The translations under genes were made by a program, and so were the position numbers. DNA of 64,000 bases from Akkermansia muciniphila (GTDB taxonomy: Bacteria; Verrucomicrobiota; Verrucomicrobiia; Verrucomicrobiales; Verrucomicrobiaceae). The stretch is taken from NCBI GenBank assembly GCA_945882215.1, contig CAMCWM010000002.1:1-64000 (forward strand), given 5' to 3'. Positions 58,612-63,664 of this stretch are shown in pieces (position 1 is the stretch's first letter; the number at the start of each line of letters is the position of its first letter). The notes beneath the pieces are model-generated. The model made no database searches, had not been told where the DNA came from, and saw nothing but the letters and a program-made list of their open reading frames with translations.

Positions 58612-61119
58612 ATGCGCCGACTTTTCATTCCAGGGCTCCTGTTTGCCGCCTCGCTTCATGCCTTTGAGCCGAAGGTGCGGCCGCTGATCGACGCGCACTG
58701 CATCGAATGCCATGGCGAGGACGTGCAGAAGGGCAAATTGCGGCTCGACGGTGAGGTGAGCATGAAGACATGGATCAAAGTGCATGACCGCATCGCCGCG
58801 GGTGAGATGCCGCCAAAGAAGTCCGAGCAGCCGCCGCAGGCTTTGCGGGATGAATCGCTGAAAATCCTGCGCCAGTCGCTGCACGCCGCCTCGCTCGAAC
58901 AACAGCGCACGCAGGGCCGCGTGCCGATTCGTCGCCTGAACGGCACCGAATACGAAAACACCGTGCGCGAACTCGTCGGCACGCGGGTGAAGCTGAAGGA
59001 CCTGCTGCCCACGGATAACAGCGCGGGCGGCTTTGATAATGTCGGCGCCGTGCTGGACCTCTCCTCGACGCATCTGCTGCTGTATCAAGAAGCTGCGGAA
59101 AAGGCCGTCAGCTCCGTGATTCCGGTTCATCCTCACCTGCCGCTCAAAGATCGTCGCACCGGCCGCCAGATCGCGGACACCGGCAGCAACTTCAAACAGA
59201 CGCTCACGCGCAGTTGCTTCCTCAAAGGCGATGCGCTTGTCGTTCACAGCAAACTGCCGCGCTACGGCCTCGTGTGCACGCCGGGCGTGCAGGGTGCGGG
59301 CCGCTACAAGGTGCGCATGTCCGCATGCGCCGTCGGCGCGGCGAACGTGCCCGTGCCGGTCGCGTATTGCACCATCGACCGCGGTCGCGAGCCGCCGGTG
59401 GTGCGTGTCGTCGTCGATTTCCCGCCCGGTGCGCCGCGCGTGATCGAAGCGGAGATCGATCTCGAAGCCGGCGAGGCCTTTGTGCTGCAACTCCAGCTCA
59501 ACTGGGATATCCGCGCGACGAAGAAACCCATCGAAGAACACACCGGCCCTGGTTTTCTCATCGAATGGCTCGAAATCGAAGGCCCCGTCGATGAATTCCC
59601 CTCGCAGGCCTATCGCACGCTTTTTGGCAATGCCGAGCTGATGCCGAAATCCGTCGCCAAAGCAAAAGCGGAAGGCAAAAAGCCGCAGGACTGGAGCAAG
59701 CGCACCAACATCTACCAATGGCTCAACGACCCGCTCGAACCCGTGAGCGCCACGCCGAAGGAGGATGCCGAAAAGCTGCTGCGTGTCTTCATTCCGCGTG
59801 CGTTTCGTCGCCCGGTCGAAGAAGACACGCTGAAGCACTACATCGGCAAAGTGCACGCCAGGCTCGATGCGGGGGAGAGCTTCGTGAATGCGATGACCTA
59901 CGGCTACAAGAGCGTGCTCACCTCGCCGCCGTTCCTCTTTTTCAGTGAATCACCCGGCGAACTCGACCGCCTCGCGCTCGCGAATCGTCTCGCCTACTTC
60001 CTCACCTCGCTGCCGCCGGATGCTGAATTGCTCGCCGCCGACGTCACGAAGCCGGATGAGCTGCGAAAACAAACCGAGCGACTGCTTCAATCACCCCGCG
60101 CCCGCGGCTTCACCGAAAACTTCACCGGCCAGTGGCTCGAACTCCGCAAAATCGACGCCACCATCCCCGATCCGAATCTCTACGGCGACTTCGACGGCAC
60201 GCTGCTCTGGTCGATGCCCGAGGAGACGCGCCGCTTCTTCGACGACGTGCTGCAAAACGACCGCAGCGTGCTCGAGTTCGTCGATTCGACATGGACGCTC
60301 GTGAATCGCCGCCTCGCCGAGCACTACGGCATTGTGGAGGCGTTCGAAGCAGCGGCGAAAGACAATCAGACAGGGAGACAATCAGACAAGGAGACTTCCC
60401 CAATCTCATTGTCTCATGGTCCGATTGTCTCCTTGTCTTCAGTTCCCCAGTCCGAGTTCCGCCGCGTGAATCTCCCCGCAGGCTCGCATCGCGGCGGCGT
60501 GATGACGCAGGGCAGCGTTCTGAAAGTCACCGCCGATGGCACCACCACCTCGCCCGTGCTGCGTGGCAAGTGGGTGCTCGAGCACATTATCGGCAAAGCG
60601 CCGCCACCACCGCCGCCGGACGTTCCTGCCATCGAGCCGGACATCCGTGGAGCCACCACCATCCGCCAGCAACTCGACAAGCACCGCAACATCGCCGCGT
60701 GCAATTCCTGCCATCAGCACATCGATCCGCCCGGCTTCGCGCTCGAGTCCTTCGATCCCATCGGTGGCTATCGTGACTTTTACCGCGCCTCCACACGCAC
60801 GAAGGCCGGCATCGTGCAACTGCCCGGCTACACCGGCCGCGCCTTCTATCGTGGACCCGATGTCGAAAAAGGCGGCGTCACGCATGATGGCAAAACCTTC
60901 ACCACCATCGAGGACTACAAGCGCCTCCTCCTCGCCGATCCCGATCAAATCGCCCGCAACCTCGCCGAAAAACTCCTCACCTACGCGACCGGTGCCGAGC
61001 CGCAGTTCGCCGACCGCGAGGTCATCGAGCAAATCGCCTCCAAGGTGAAAACCAAGAACTATGGCTTCCGCATACTCGTTCATGAGATCGTGCAGAGCAG
61101 GCCGTTTCGCAGCAAGTGA
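58612..61119 (+). CDS. Planctomycete-type cytochrome c protein (DUF1587/1592/1588/1585)
   Basis: 835 residues. The signal peptide (MRRLFIPGLLFAASLHAF) is followed by a heme-binding CIECH (Cys30-His34), then DUF1587 (VPIRRLNGTEYENTVRELVG, about 105-170), DUF1592 (about 450-580; FLFFSESPGELDRLALANRL), DUF1588 (GVMTQGSVLKVTADGTTTSPV, with CNSCHQHIDPPG) and DUF1585 at the end (NLAEKLLTYATGAEP). These proteins are widespread in Planctomycetes and Verrucomicrobia, presumed periplasmic redox proteins, normally beside a DUF1552 gene. Residues 583-610 are a repeat-derived insertion. It is separated from its usual DUF1552 partner by the YhcG gene. Confidence 0.88.
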   Translation: MRRLFIPGLLFAASLHAFEPKVRPLIDAHCIECHGEDVQKGKLRLDGEVSMKTWIKVHDRIAAGEMPPKKSEQPPQALRDESLKILRQSLHAASLEQQRTQGRVPIRRLNGTEYENTVRELVGTRVKLKDLLPTDNSAGGFDNVGAVLDLSSTHLLLYQEAAEKAVSSVIPVHPHLPLKDRRTGRQIADTGSNFKQTLTRSCFLKGDALVVHSKLPRYGLVCTPGVQGAGRYKVRMSACAVGAANVPVPVAYCTIDRGREPPVVRVVVDFPPGAPRVIEAEIDLEAGEAFVLQLQLNWDIRATKKPIEEHTGPGFLIEWLEIEGPVDEFPSQAYRTLFGNAELMPKSVAKAKAEGKKPQDWSKRTNIYQWLNDPLEPVSATPKEDAEKLLRVFIPRAFRRPVEEDTLKHYIGKVHARLDAGESFVNAMTYGYKSVLTSPPFLFFSESPGELDRLALANRLAYFLTSLPPDAELLAADVTKPDELRKQTERLLQSPRARGFTENFTGQWLELRKIDATIPDPNLYGDFDGTLLWSMPEETRRFFDDVLQNDRSVLEFVDSTWTLVNRRLAEHYGIVEAFEAAAKDNQTGRQSDKETSPISLSHGPIVSLSSVPQSEFRRVNLPAGSHRGGVMTQGSVLKVTADGTTTSPVLRGKWVLEHIIGKAPPPPPPDVPAIEPDIRGATTIRQQLDKHRNIAACNSCHQHIDPPGFALESFDPIGGYRDFYRASTRTKAGIVQLPGYTGRAFYRGPDVEKGGVTHDGKTFTTIEDYKRLLLADPDQIARNLAEKLLTYATGAEPQFADREVIEQIASKVKTKNYGFRILVHEIVQSRPFRSK
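60359..60440. repeat. Repeat-derived in-frame insertion in the DUF1592 gene
   Basis: The segment begins with tandem-like copies of AGACAATCAGACA and GGAGACAATCAGACAAGG, then continues with inverted forms (CGATTGTCTCCTTGTCT). It encodes a low-complexity polar stretch with no counterpart in normal DUF1592/1588 proteins, between YGIVEAFEAAAK and SEFRRVNLPAG. It keeps the frame. Confidence 0.8.
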
Positions 61120-61131
61120 GTGCCGGGCGGG

Positions 61132-62355
61132 TTATCGTTTGCCTTTCGTCAGCGCTTTGATCTCCGCGCGATCTTTTTCCAGGAATGCCTTCAGTTGCTC
61201 GGCACTCGGCAGCGATTTGAGATAGCGTGAGACGAAGAGTTTGTTGTCCATGCCCGCCGTGGCGAACTCCACCTCCGCGCCATCGCGGTCACTGCACAGC
61301 AGGATGCCCACGGGCGGATTGTCGCCGGGCTGCGTCATGTTTGCTTTGAACCAGTTCACATAAAAGTTCATCTGGCCCGCATCCTCCGGCTTGAAGGCTC
61401 GGATCTTCAAATCGATGAGCACATGGCAGCGCAGGATGCGGTGGTAGAAAACGAGATCCACGCGATGATGCCGCCGCCCCTCCGTCATGCGGAACTGGCG
61501 GCCCTCGAAGCAAAAGCCCTGGCCCAGCTCGAGCAGGAATTTTTGAAGATGATCCAGCAGCGCCGACTCCAGCTCGTCCTCCGAGTAGCTCGGCAGCTCC
61601 GCCAGCCCGGTGAACTCCAGGACATACGGATCACGCAGCAAGTCGGCGATGCTCTCACGCGGCTCCTGCTTCCGGGCACGCTCGATGACAGCTTTCTTGT
61701 TCTTGGACAGCCCCGTGCGTTCATACAGCAGGCTGCCGATCTGCCGCTGGAGCTGGCGCACGGACCAGTGGCTGCGCAGGCACTCGTTTTCGTAAAAAGC
61801 ACGCTGCCATGGGTCATCGAGGCGGATGAGTTCCAGCAGCTTGCTCCAGGACAAATGGATCACGACCTCTGCCTCCAATGGTGTGGGCACCGCCGCCTCG
61901 CTGCTTTTGCCACCCGTTGGAGATTCCGTCCGCGCTGTGGATGGAATCTGAAGAGGCACAGCCAATTCCGTCCACACCGTGGATGGAATTGCCTTTCCAA
62001 TCTGCGGGTAGGTGAGAAAAAGCTGCCGGCAACGACCCAGAACGATGACTCCCAAACCCTTCATCTTACGCCGCGCCAGATCATCAGCCAGACTCTCCAG
62101 CAGGCGTTCGCCATATTTTGCGCGGTCCGTGCCATGCTGTTGGAACTCCACGATATGTGCCCCGAACAGCCAGTTCCGCAGCACCAATCCTTGATTGGCA
62201 AACGTGGCGACACGTCCGACGATCTGCTCGTTGAGACGAGAGATGGCTGTGACGAGATGTTGATACCCCGTGCCGCGTTTGGCAGCCAGGGTGGACTTGG
62301 CAGTGATTTTCTTCGCCATGATGCGGTCAGTCTTAGCTGGAGGCAGCTTTTTCAT
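61132..62355 (-). CDS. YhcG/DUF1016-family PD-(D/E)XK nuclease
   Basis: 407 residues from ATG 62355, with GGAGAG 11 nt upstream; MAKKITAKS at 62319 is an alternative. The N-terminal DUF1016 domain includes ISRLNEQIVGRVATFANQ and YGERLLESLADDLARRK. The C-terminal nuclease core has ELGQGFCFEGRQFRMTEG, HRVDLVFYHRILRCHVLIDLK (D and DxK) and GQMNFYVNWFK. YhcG proteins are suspected to act in defence or DNA repair and are often found singly or in restriction-type loci. A Pro/Ser/Thr-rich insert (about 125-145) is encoded by two palindromic repeats. The gene faces against both neighbours, splitting the DUF1592/DUF1552 pair. Confidence 0.88.
   Translation of the reverse strand: MKKLPPAKTDRIMAKKITAKSTLAAKRGTGYQHLVTAISRLNEQIVGRVATFANQGLVLRNWLFGAHIVEFQQHGTDRAKYGERLLESLADDLARRKMKGLGVIVLGRCRQLFLTYPQIGKAIPSTVWTELAVPLQIPSTARTESPTGGKSSEAAVPTPLEAEVVIHLSWSKLLELIRLDDPWQRAFYENECLRSHWSVRQLQRQIGSLLYERTGLSKNKKAVIERARKQEPRESIADLLRDPYVLEFTGLAELPSYSEDELESALLDHLQKFLLELGQGFCFEGRQFRMTEGRRHHRVDLVFYHRILRCHVLIDLKIRAFKPEDAGQMNFYVNWFKANMTQPGDNPPVGILLCSDRDGAEVEFATAGMDNKLFVSRYLKSLPSAEQLKAFLEKDRAEIKALTKGKR
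61922..61991. repeat. Two palindromic repeats inside the YhcG coding region
   Basis: Copy 1 (61922-61948) GATTCCGTCC...GGATGGAATC and copy 2 (61963-61991) CAATTCCGTCCAC...GTGGATGGAATTG are imperfect palindromes sharing the core TTCCGTCC/GGATGGAA. They start about 42 bp apart, a multiple of three, and encode the low-complexity insert. Confidence 0.85.
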
Positions 62356-62407
62356 CAACCATCACTCTCCGCGAGAAACGTGCTCTCGCGCATCGTTTAT
62401 AACCGCC

Positions 62408-63664
62408 ATGCCACGCCACGTTCTCGACCGCCGCACGTTTTTGCGCTCCTCCGGCATTGCCATCGGGCTGCCGTTTCTCGATGCGATGATGCCTGTGAGC
62501 GCTGCAGAGACGAAAAAGGCCGCCACAGCGCCGAAACGCGTGCTGCTGGTCGGACGTCCGCTCGGCATGCATGCGCCGAACTTCTTCCCGACGGACACGG
62601 GCAAAAACTACACGCCCAGCCGCTACCTGAAGTTCCTGCAAAGCCGCCGCGATGACTTCACCGTCTTCTCCGGGCTCTCGCATCGCTACGGCGCGGGGCA
62701 TTACGCGGAGGTGGGCCTCTTCACCGGCGTGCATCCCGACTTCATCCGGCCAAACGACATCAAGAACAGCATCTCACTCGATCAAGAAGTCGCGTCGCAC
62801 CTCGCGGGGCAGACGCGGTTCAACTCCCTCGTCATCGGCGGCGGCAGCGCGGCGTGGAACCGCCGTGGCGTGCGGCTGCCCGCCGAGCAGCGCGTGAGCA
62901 GCGTCTTCAAGCAGCTCTTCATCCAGGGCACCACGGACGAAACCGCGCGTGAAATGCGCCGCATCAAGGACGGGCAGAGCATTCTCGACGACGTGCGTGA
63001 TCAACTCGGCAGTCTGAACGCCAAACTCGGCAGCGAGGACCGCGAGCGCCTCGATTTATATGTCTCCTCCATCCGCGAGGCCGAACAAAAGCTGCAACAA
63101 GACGAAACGTGGCAGCGAACCCCGAAGCCGAAGATCGATGTGAAGCCGCCGCAGGAGCTCAGCAGCGCGCAGCTCGTCGAACGCAGCCGCCAGTGGTATG
63201 ACCTCGTGCATCTCGCCTTTCAAACCGACAGCACGCGCGCCATCTCGCTCTGGCTCGGCTCGCAGGACAAGCCGGAGATTCAAGGTGTGAACATCGGCCA
63301 CCACGATGCCTCGCATCACGGCCAAGACCCCGGCAAGCTGGAGCAGCTCGCGCTCATCGAAGACGCCGAGATGCGCGTCTTTGGCGGGTTCCTCGACAAA
63401 CTCAAAGCCAGCACCGAGGGCGACAGCACGCTCCTCGATCGCTCCTCGATCTTCTTCGCCAGCAACCTCGGCAACGCGTCGAATCACGACAACACGAACC
63501 TCCCCGTCATCCTCGCCGGCGGCGGCTACAAGCACGCGGGCCACCTCGCCCACGACAAGCAGAACAACACCTTCCTCTCGAATCTCTTCGTCCGAATGAT
63601 CCAGCAATCCGGCATCGAACTCGACAAGTTCGGCGCCAGCAGCGGCGTGCTCAGCGAGATTTGA
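62408..63664 (+). CDS. Tat-exported DUF1552 protein
   Basis: 418 residues from the ATG at 62408. The twin-arginine signal is DRRTFLRSSGIAIGLPFLDAM. Characteristic DUF1552 text follows: RVLLVGRPLGMHAPNFFPTD, FTVFSGLSHRYGAGHYAE, IGHHDASHHGQDP and ILAGGGYKHAGHLAHDK. The family belongs to the alkaline phosphatase-like fold with DUF1501 relatives and is nearly always next to a DUF1592 cytochrome-like protein, suggesting a periplasmic complex of unknown chemistry. It overlaps the convergent gene at 63651 by 14 nt. Confidence 0.9.
   Translation: MPRHVLDRRTFLRSSGIAIGLPFLDAMMPVSAAETKKAATAPKRVLLVGRPLGMHAPNFFPTDTGKNYTPSRYLKFLQSRRDDFTVFSGLSHRYGAGHYAEVGLFTGVHPDFIRPNDIKNSISLDQEVASHLAGQTRFNSLVIGGGSAAWNRRGVRLPAEQRVSSVFKQLFIQGTTDETAREMRRIKDGQSILDDVRDQLGSLNAKLGSEDRERLDLYVSSIREAEQKLQQDETWQRTPKPKIDVKPPQELSSAQLVERSRQWYDLVHLAFQTDSTRAISLWLGSQDKPEIQGVNIGHHDASHHGQDPGKLEQLALIEDAEMRVFGGFLDKLKASTEGDSTLLDRSSIFFASNLGNASNHDNTNLPVILAGGGYKHAGHLAHDKQNNTFLSNLFVRMIQQSGIELDKFGASSGVLSEI

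Follow-up and report, generated by a model that had tools for sequence, protein, structure and literature searches.

Palindromes within yhcG genes covary with predicted DNA-reading residues of the proteins that they encode

Introduction

A yhcG gene of Akkermansia muciniphila raises the question of why a predicted nuclease gene should carry palindromes inside its own coding sequence, and of how it came to lie between a DUF1592-type gene and a DUF1552 gene. The gene is located in a stretch of 64,000 nucleotides (contig CAMCWM010000002.1), which was analysed as a whole and is called the window here. YhcG is a predicted nuclease of unknown function (PMC1189080), and the open-access papers on YhcG treat it as a predicted nuclease only, with no mention of in-gene palindromes or of a DNA target. 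In two phylum samples, YhcG was found in 43 of 145 and in 88 of 248 genomes, and the 5' part of yhcG is present in 4399 of 5426 E. coli genomes; common as the protein is, it has no known function or target. A first-pass annotation of the window had likened the palindromes to REP elements and had proposed that the gene may be self-targeting or self-mobilising.

The yhcG gene as an insert between DUF1592 and DUF1552

The gene and its surroundings were composed of the following features.

61132..62355, minus strand: yhcG coding sequence with DUF1016_N and PD-(D/E)XK nuclease domains (open reading frame and domain matches, PADLOC PDC-S02)
61189..61644, minus strand: predicted PD-(D/E)XK nuclease domain, YhcG_C (invariant Glu, Asp and Lys kept; fold match)
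58612..61119, plus strand: DUF1592-type gene, left neighbour (open reading frame and domain match)
62408..63664, plus strand: DUF1552 gene, right neighbour (open reading frame, domain match and relatives)
about 61120..62399, no strand: insertion of about 1.28 kb between DUF1592 and DUF1552 (empty site in L267-L274)

The window gene is a member of the YhcG/DUF1016 family (PF17761 and PF06250, COG4804; PADLOC candidate PDC-S02), with which it shares the domains and the conserved nuclease residues. Its product matched DUF1016_N (PF17761) with 90.5 bits against a cut-off of 32.8 and YhcG_C (PF06250) with 179.9 bits against a cut-off of 32.5. The start was assigned to the ATG at 62355, and other in-frame starts are present.

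Comparison with relatives identified an empty site, in which the end of DUF1592 lies approximately 15-20 nt from DUF1552; this was the case in L267 and L268, whose DUF1552 genes are 93-97% identical, and in several more distant relatives. At the same junction, about 1.28 kb more is present in the window and in its sister L006, whose YhcG is 95% identical. This marks yhcG as a recent insert consisting of little more than the gene itself, and the earlier view that an inserted yhcG splits the DUF1592/DUF1552 pair was confirmed. Conservation of YhcG between the two genes, which the first-pass annotation had named as evidence against its idea, was not observed. When the insert ends were compared with the empty sites, neither a clear target duplication nor palindromes were detected, and the DUF1592/DUF1552 junction of the relatives contained no palindrome matching the yhcG dyads. 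A 7-bp inverted repeat, CGCGAGA-AACGTGC-TCTCGCG, was noticed by eye at the edge of the insert just upstream of yhcG (window 62376-62396), and its type is unlike that of the dyads described below.

The two palindromes of the window gene

Palindrome search and translation located the two in-frame palindromes of yhcG that the first-pass annotation had described; they are 25 nt long each and 88% identical to each other.

61965..61989, no strand: palindrome 1, ATTCCATCCAC-GGT-GTGGACGGAAT (coding strand), encoding IPSTVWTE
61923..61947, no strand: palindrome 2, ATTCCATCCAC-AGC-GCGGACGGAAT (coding strand), encoding IPSTARTE, with two A.C mismatches

A.C mismatches were found in both dyads, and neither 25-mer bears a GTAG or CGTC end tag by eye. 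In the genome-wide search that the annotation had called for, the pattern TTCCRTCC-N(3-12)-GGAYGGAA matched the 6.2-Mb draft genome only at the two yhcG palindromes, while the reversed control pattern gave 0 matches, and no further exact copies of the window palindrome were found in this draft. As the pattern occurs nowhere else there, the window palindrome does not qualify as a dispersed REP of this organism. A Rickettsia-type palindromic element (RPE), which is a single element recurring in many unrelated genes, was likewise rejected, the copies in this genome being in yhcG only. The proposed likeness to REPs was also not borne out in the sampled genomes, where palindromes were mostly confined to yhcG genes or their relics; no RAYT-like arrangement was noticed, tags and RAYT genes having been the subject of no systematic search.

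Palindromes across the YhcG family

Sixty related loci were fetched first and their linkers read, and later sampling extended the set to 194 YhcG genes from many phyla; the alignments were automatic and the genomes mostly drafts. In nearly all of the 60 loci, one to several 25-nt dyads were found at the same place in the linker with very different arms, such as ATTCGGGGTCC-AGT-GGACCCCGAAT, ATTGTTCCGAC-ACT-GTCGGAACAAT and ATTTTGCAACA-GCC-TGTTGCAAAAT. In the larger set, 170 of the 194 genes possessed linker palindromes, amounting to 283 dyads, and the other 24 had no clear one.

The number of palindromes was compared with that in synonymous-codon shuffles, which keep the protein and the codon usage, counting arms around a 3-nt centre. 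The 194 genes contained 83 perfect 11-bp arms when 0.1 were expected, and 209 arms with at least 10 of 11 pairs when 5.4 were expected. Controls treated alike showed no excess of perfect arms (1 against 0.2 in 191 flanking ORFs; 0 against 0 in 29 DUF1552 genes).

The palindromes occurred in all three reading frames, one of which was dominant (123/139 in a smaller tally and 273/283 in the full set). Peptides encoded in the dominant frame had the form IxxTxSxE, while the other frames encoded unrelated peptides, for example NSVTSGHGI and KLGNHCLPN. The presence of palindromes in all three frames indicated that the constraint acts on DNA, not on protein. The first-pass annotation had named homologues with the same linker protein and different DNA as evidence against its idea, and the opposite was observed: homologues keep the palindrome while the encoded peptide changes frame. 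The three central bases fitted R-N-Y in approximately 96% of the 283 dyads, and the dyad is thus best written ATT-N8-R-N-Y-N8-AAT.

As for the palindromes found outside yhcG genes, that in L106 matched a short yhcG relic (tblastn E=0.001), and those in L103 and L097 were without explanation. The region L097:2447-2586 holds four yhcG-type palindromes, apparently non-coding, beside an hsdM-like (type I methyltransferase) gene, with no recognisable yhcG relic.

Covariation between protein residues and palindrome bases

Mutual information with average-product correction was calculated between 302 protein columns outside the linker and the 11 half-site positions, over 170 genes with an effective number of 99. 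With residues numbered as in E. coli, the highest-ranking pairs were residue 85 with position 6 (z=11.4), 170 with 10 (z=10.4), 145 with 9 (z=7.8), 88 with 5 (z=6.7) and 171 with 11 (z=5.9), followed by 88 with 4 and 89 with 7/8. All of these pairs scored 0/300 in permutations within clusters of related proteins, and the strongest recurred in two non-overlapping gene sets. Arg85 was accompanied by G at position 6 (94%), Arg171 by C at position 11 (98%), Glu88 by C (84%), Trp/Tyr88 by T, Arg/Lys170 by C, and Ser/Thr170 by G. These preferences are chemically sensible and fit major-groove readout.

The pairings also held between distant proteins. Among protein pairs less than 40% identical, the fraction with the same base at position 6 was 0.82 when residue 85 was common and 0.22 otherwise, and that with the same base at position 11 was 0.92 when residue 171 was common and 0.26 otherwise; sharing of residues 88 and 89 gave smaller gains. 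Moreover, the out-of-frame palindromes mostly obeyed the same pairings, residue 85 in L011 being the one exception, which removes coding-level coupling as the cause.

The positions of these residues were examined in an AlphaFold model of the window YhcG (mean pLDDT 82), for which the underlying alignment was without an E. coli row. E. coli residues 85, 88 and 89 correspond to I105, G108 and R109 of the window protein, and 170 and 171 to V200 and R201. The model predicts that residues 85-89 fall in the first turns of one helix and residues 170-171 in those of another, resembling recognition helices of the helix-turn-helix type.

62011..62049, minus strand: first predicted recognition helix of DUF1016_N, residues 104-116 (AlphaFold, residue mapping, covariation)
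61735..61761, minus strand: second predicted recognition helix, residues 200-208 (AlphaFold, residue mapping, covariation)

The region encoded by the palindromes is a low-confidence stretch of the model between both helices. The earlier statement that the palindromes form the linker between the two domains needs correction: they lie inside the DUF1016_N match (residues 45-214), between the two predicted recognition helices, rather than, in a strict sense, between that domain and the nuclease domain. In the nuclease domain, E244, E248, E261, D285 and K302 (model numbering) were invariant in the YhcG alignment, and the modelled fold resembled a P. abyssi repair endonuclease and EndoMS. No sequence homologue of YhcG was found in the PDB. 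The domain has been related to Holliday-junction resolvases (Kosinski 2005, PMC1189080).

These results strongly suggest that YhcG recognises, at the DNA level, the palindromes carried by its own gene, which we regard as very likely, and that it probably binds them in duplex DNA as a dimer. The idea of a self-targeting gene thus gained support as far as recognition is concerned, since the palindrome bases covary with the putative DNA-reading residues of YhcG itself. In the window pair, positions 8, 10 and 11 agreed with the residue-base code and positions 5 and 9 departed from it. The first helix of the window YhcG is unusual (I105, G108), and because of this atypical helix and the A.C mismatches in both dyads, the window copy may be relaxed or read differently. 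The other full-length YhcG of the same genome (L077; R85, S171) has a different dyad, with G at position 6 and A at position 11, as the code predicts.

Alleles and breakpoints in E. coli

The yhcG gene of E. coli K-12 contains three linker palindromes, and a fourth, perfect one is located 16 bp past the stop codon, between yhcG and nanQ (L066:6971-6995). A BLAST search with palindrome 3 retrieved essentially yhcG only in E. coli genomes, with a median of two places per genome, as expected because the palindrome also matches its own other strand.

Another allele (L114/L116), most of which is held by approximately 470 E. coli genomes, has R85 and W88 in helix 1 where K-12 has K85 and R88. Its palindrome 1 is ATTGTGCAGAC, compared with ATTCGCCAGAC in K-12, so that GTG replaces CGC in the outer half-site; both alleles have the same helix 2 and the same inner half, CAGAC. 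As read from these sequences, helix 1 and the outer half-site are swapped together in this allele, as the family-wide code predicts. The second dyad of the allele, with the old outer bases and one mismatch, is probably a remnant.

Other E. coli alleles had lost palindromes 2 and 3 through deletions of 77-80 bp with at least three distinct junctions, some of them frameshifting, and two of these alleles were present in 206 and 161 genomes. In approximately 720 genomes, including that of ATCC 8739, the end of yhcG coincides exactly with the outer edge of palindrome 3 (L115:1360-1850; L117:1280-1800). The truncated gene is followed by a 101-aa ORF annotated as 'transposase' or hypothetical, which had no Pfam match. 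These breakpoints may be due to cutting of the sites, or to the ordinary slippage that short palindromes undergo.

Possible roles of the intragenic palindromes

We propose that each yhcG gene carries one to several copies of a palindrome recognised by its own protein, placed between the codons of the two putative DNA-reading helices. The site would be the 25-bp dyad ATT-N8-RNY-N8-AAT, which agrees with binding by a YhcG dimer. In either half-site, the first helix (E. coli 85-89) would read positions 4-8, and residue 145 with the second helix (170-171) would read positions 9-11. Binding within the gene would limit transcription of the nuclease gene, namely negative autoregulation by intragenic operators, and a gene arriving alone in a new host would bring its own control along. 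The recognition of an intragenic operator by the gene's own product is here suggested by covariation only. I-TevI provides a precedent for autoregulation by a nuclease (PMC3943268). Against it, copies resembling a gene's own palindrome near the 5' end, proximal to the promoter, were rare (3 of 170 genes; L014, L134 and L204), and it would have to be explained why a nuclease bound to its own gene leaves that gene intact. Autoregulation is the simplest and likeliest purpose, unproven, and we place it slightly short of an even chance, while the explanation as a whole, combining own-gene recognition with an autoregulatory purpose, seems to us reasonably likely.

A role as a general anti-phage target is very unlikely for a specific dyad of such length, and the practical target would therefore be the yhcG gene itself. 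Phage DNA was rejected as a target, the E. coli palindrome being absent from viral contigs. The window pattern gave 36 viral matches, which look like chance because they were without the inner AC/GT and none was in a YhcG gene. YhcG was not found in viral contigs with two protein queries, which detect close relatives only.

The main rival to autoregulation is self-directed cleavage, in which YhcG would bind and cut the palindromes, as duplex or extruded cruciform, in its own or a sister yhcG, resulting in deletion, allele exchange or spread of the gene; the in-gene site would then be a recombination or mobility device. The invariant active-site residues, the fold match to repair endonucleases, the relationship to Holliday-junction resolvases, the breakage of E. 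coli alleles at palindromes and the nearly bare single-gene insert in the window all agree with such a role. However, deletions with 2-3-nt microhomology arise by replication slippage too at any hairpin-prone array, the insert ends are without palindromes or duplications, and the sites and the gene are intact in most copies. We consider self-directed cleavage possible but rather unlikely.

Another explanation is that the palindromes act in the mRNA, as hairpins that YhcG binds or cuts to control translation or stability. The transcripts would indeed form stable 11-bp hairpins with 3-nt loops, but the mismatches in the arms of the linker dyads (72 A.C, 41 G.T and 176 other) showed no G.T excess on the coding strand and resembled those of unconstrained half-sites, a spectrum that fits two half-sites read separately on duplex DNA and argues against an RNA helix. 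In addition, the base-residue pairing resembles helix readout of the duplex DNA major groove, and the further E. coli copy lies just past the stop codon, which makes control through the mRNA improbable.

The chance insertion of a dispersed palindromic element (REP or Rickettsia-type RPE) into yhcG has known parallels in protein-coding palindromes (RPE; GTAG/CGTC repeats, PMC3733652), and yet it is highly improbable, considering that the window genome has no other exact copies, that the palindromes occupy one position in nearly every homologue with sequences that vary between genes, and that they covary with residues of the host protein. Selection of IxxTxSxE as a protein repeat, from whose codons the palindrome would follow, agrees with the recurrent peptides of the dominant frame, but has a negligible probability given the loss of the signal in synonymous shuffles (83 against 0.1) and the unrelated peptides of the other frames.

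Comparison with known systems

No earlier report of a yhcG gene carrying its own recognition site was found in the open-access literature. The closest likeness is to I-TevI, a site-specific nuclease bound at its own reading frame that limits its own expression (PMC3943268). The site of I-TevI is a single one overlapping the 5' promoter of one phage gene, whereas yhcG has several mid-gene dyads, family-wide across phyla, which covary with the protein. Homing endonuclease genes destroy their cut site by their own insertion, whereas the inferred site of yhcG stays intact inside the gene; yhcG was thus rejected as a homing endonuclease gene, which interrupts and destroys its own target. Rickettsia palindromic elements and the GTAG/CGTC REPs located in genes are in-frame coding palindromes like those of yhcG (PMC3733652), but each comprises one sequence family spread over many unrelated genes, in contrast to gene-specific sequences at one place in one family. 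REP/RAYT pairs (REPtrons) similarly associate the gene of a DNA-processing enzyme with palindromes. REPs, however, flank RAYT genes in high copy, while the yhcG palindromes are in-gene and low in copy, and the enzyme is a PD-(D/E)XK protein.

Since the target of each YhcG seems to be present in its own gene, a draft recognition code for this nuclease family can be derived from genome data alone. The own-gene targets are directly testable substrates, including those of E. coli K-12. The arrangement may represent a new type of architecture: a stretch of coding sequence that also serves as a binding site for the protein it encodes. Its confirmation would give access to the function of a large orphan family and provide a self-indexed set of protein-DNA specificities.

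Palindromes in ORF6N genes

ORF6N, which is unrelated to YhcG, appears to have the same architecture, and this suggests a more general one. In 19 ORF6N genes, 10 perfect 10-bp arms were found when 0 were expected, in more than one reading frame. It is conceivable, though unlikely, that yhcG and ORF6N are examples of a general class of genes that move horizontally and bear the site of their own product as a coding self-tag. The YhcG nuclease would then act on this tag, whether in its own gene, in sister alleles or in incoming copies, leading to allele replacement, exclusion of like genes or mobility. The gene-specific coding dyad was located approximately 17 codons before the FTEQG motif, both in ORF6N genes near yhcG (L018 and L039) and in a separate sample (L296-L324); the dyads of the former lie at L018:2742-2768 and approximately 2412-2441, and at L039:2713-2737.
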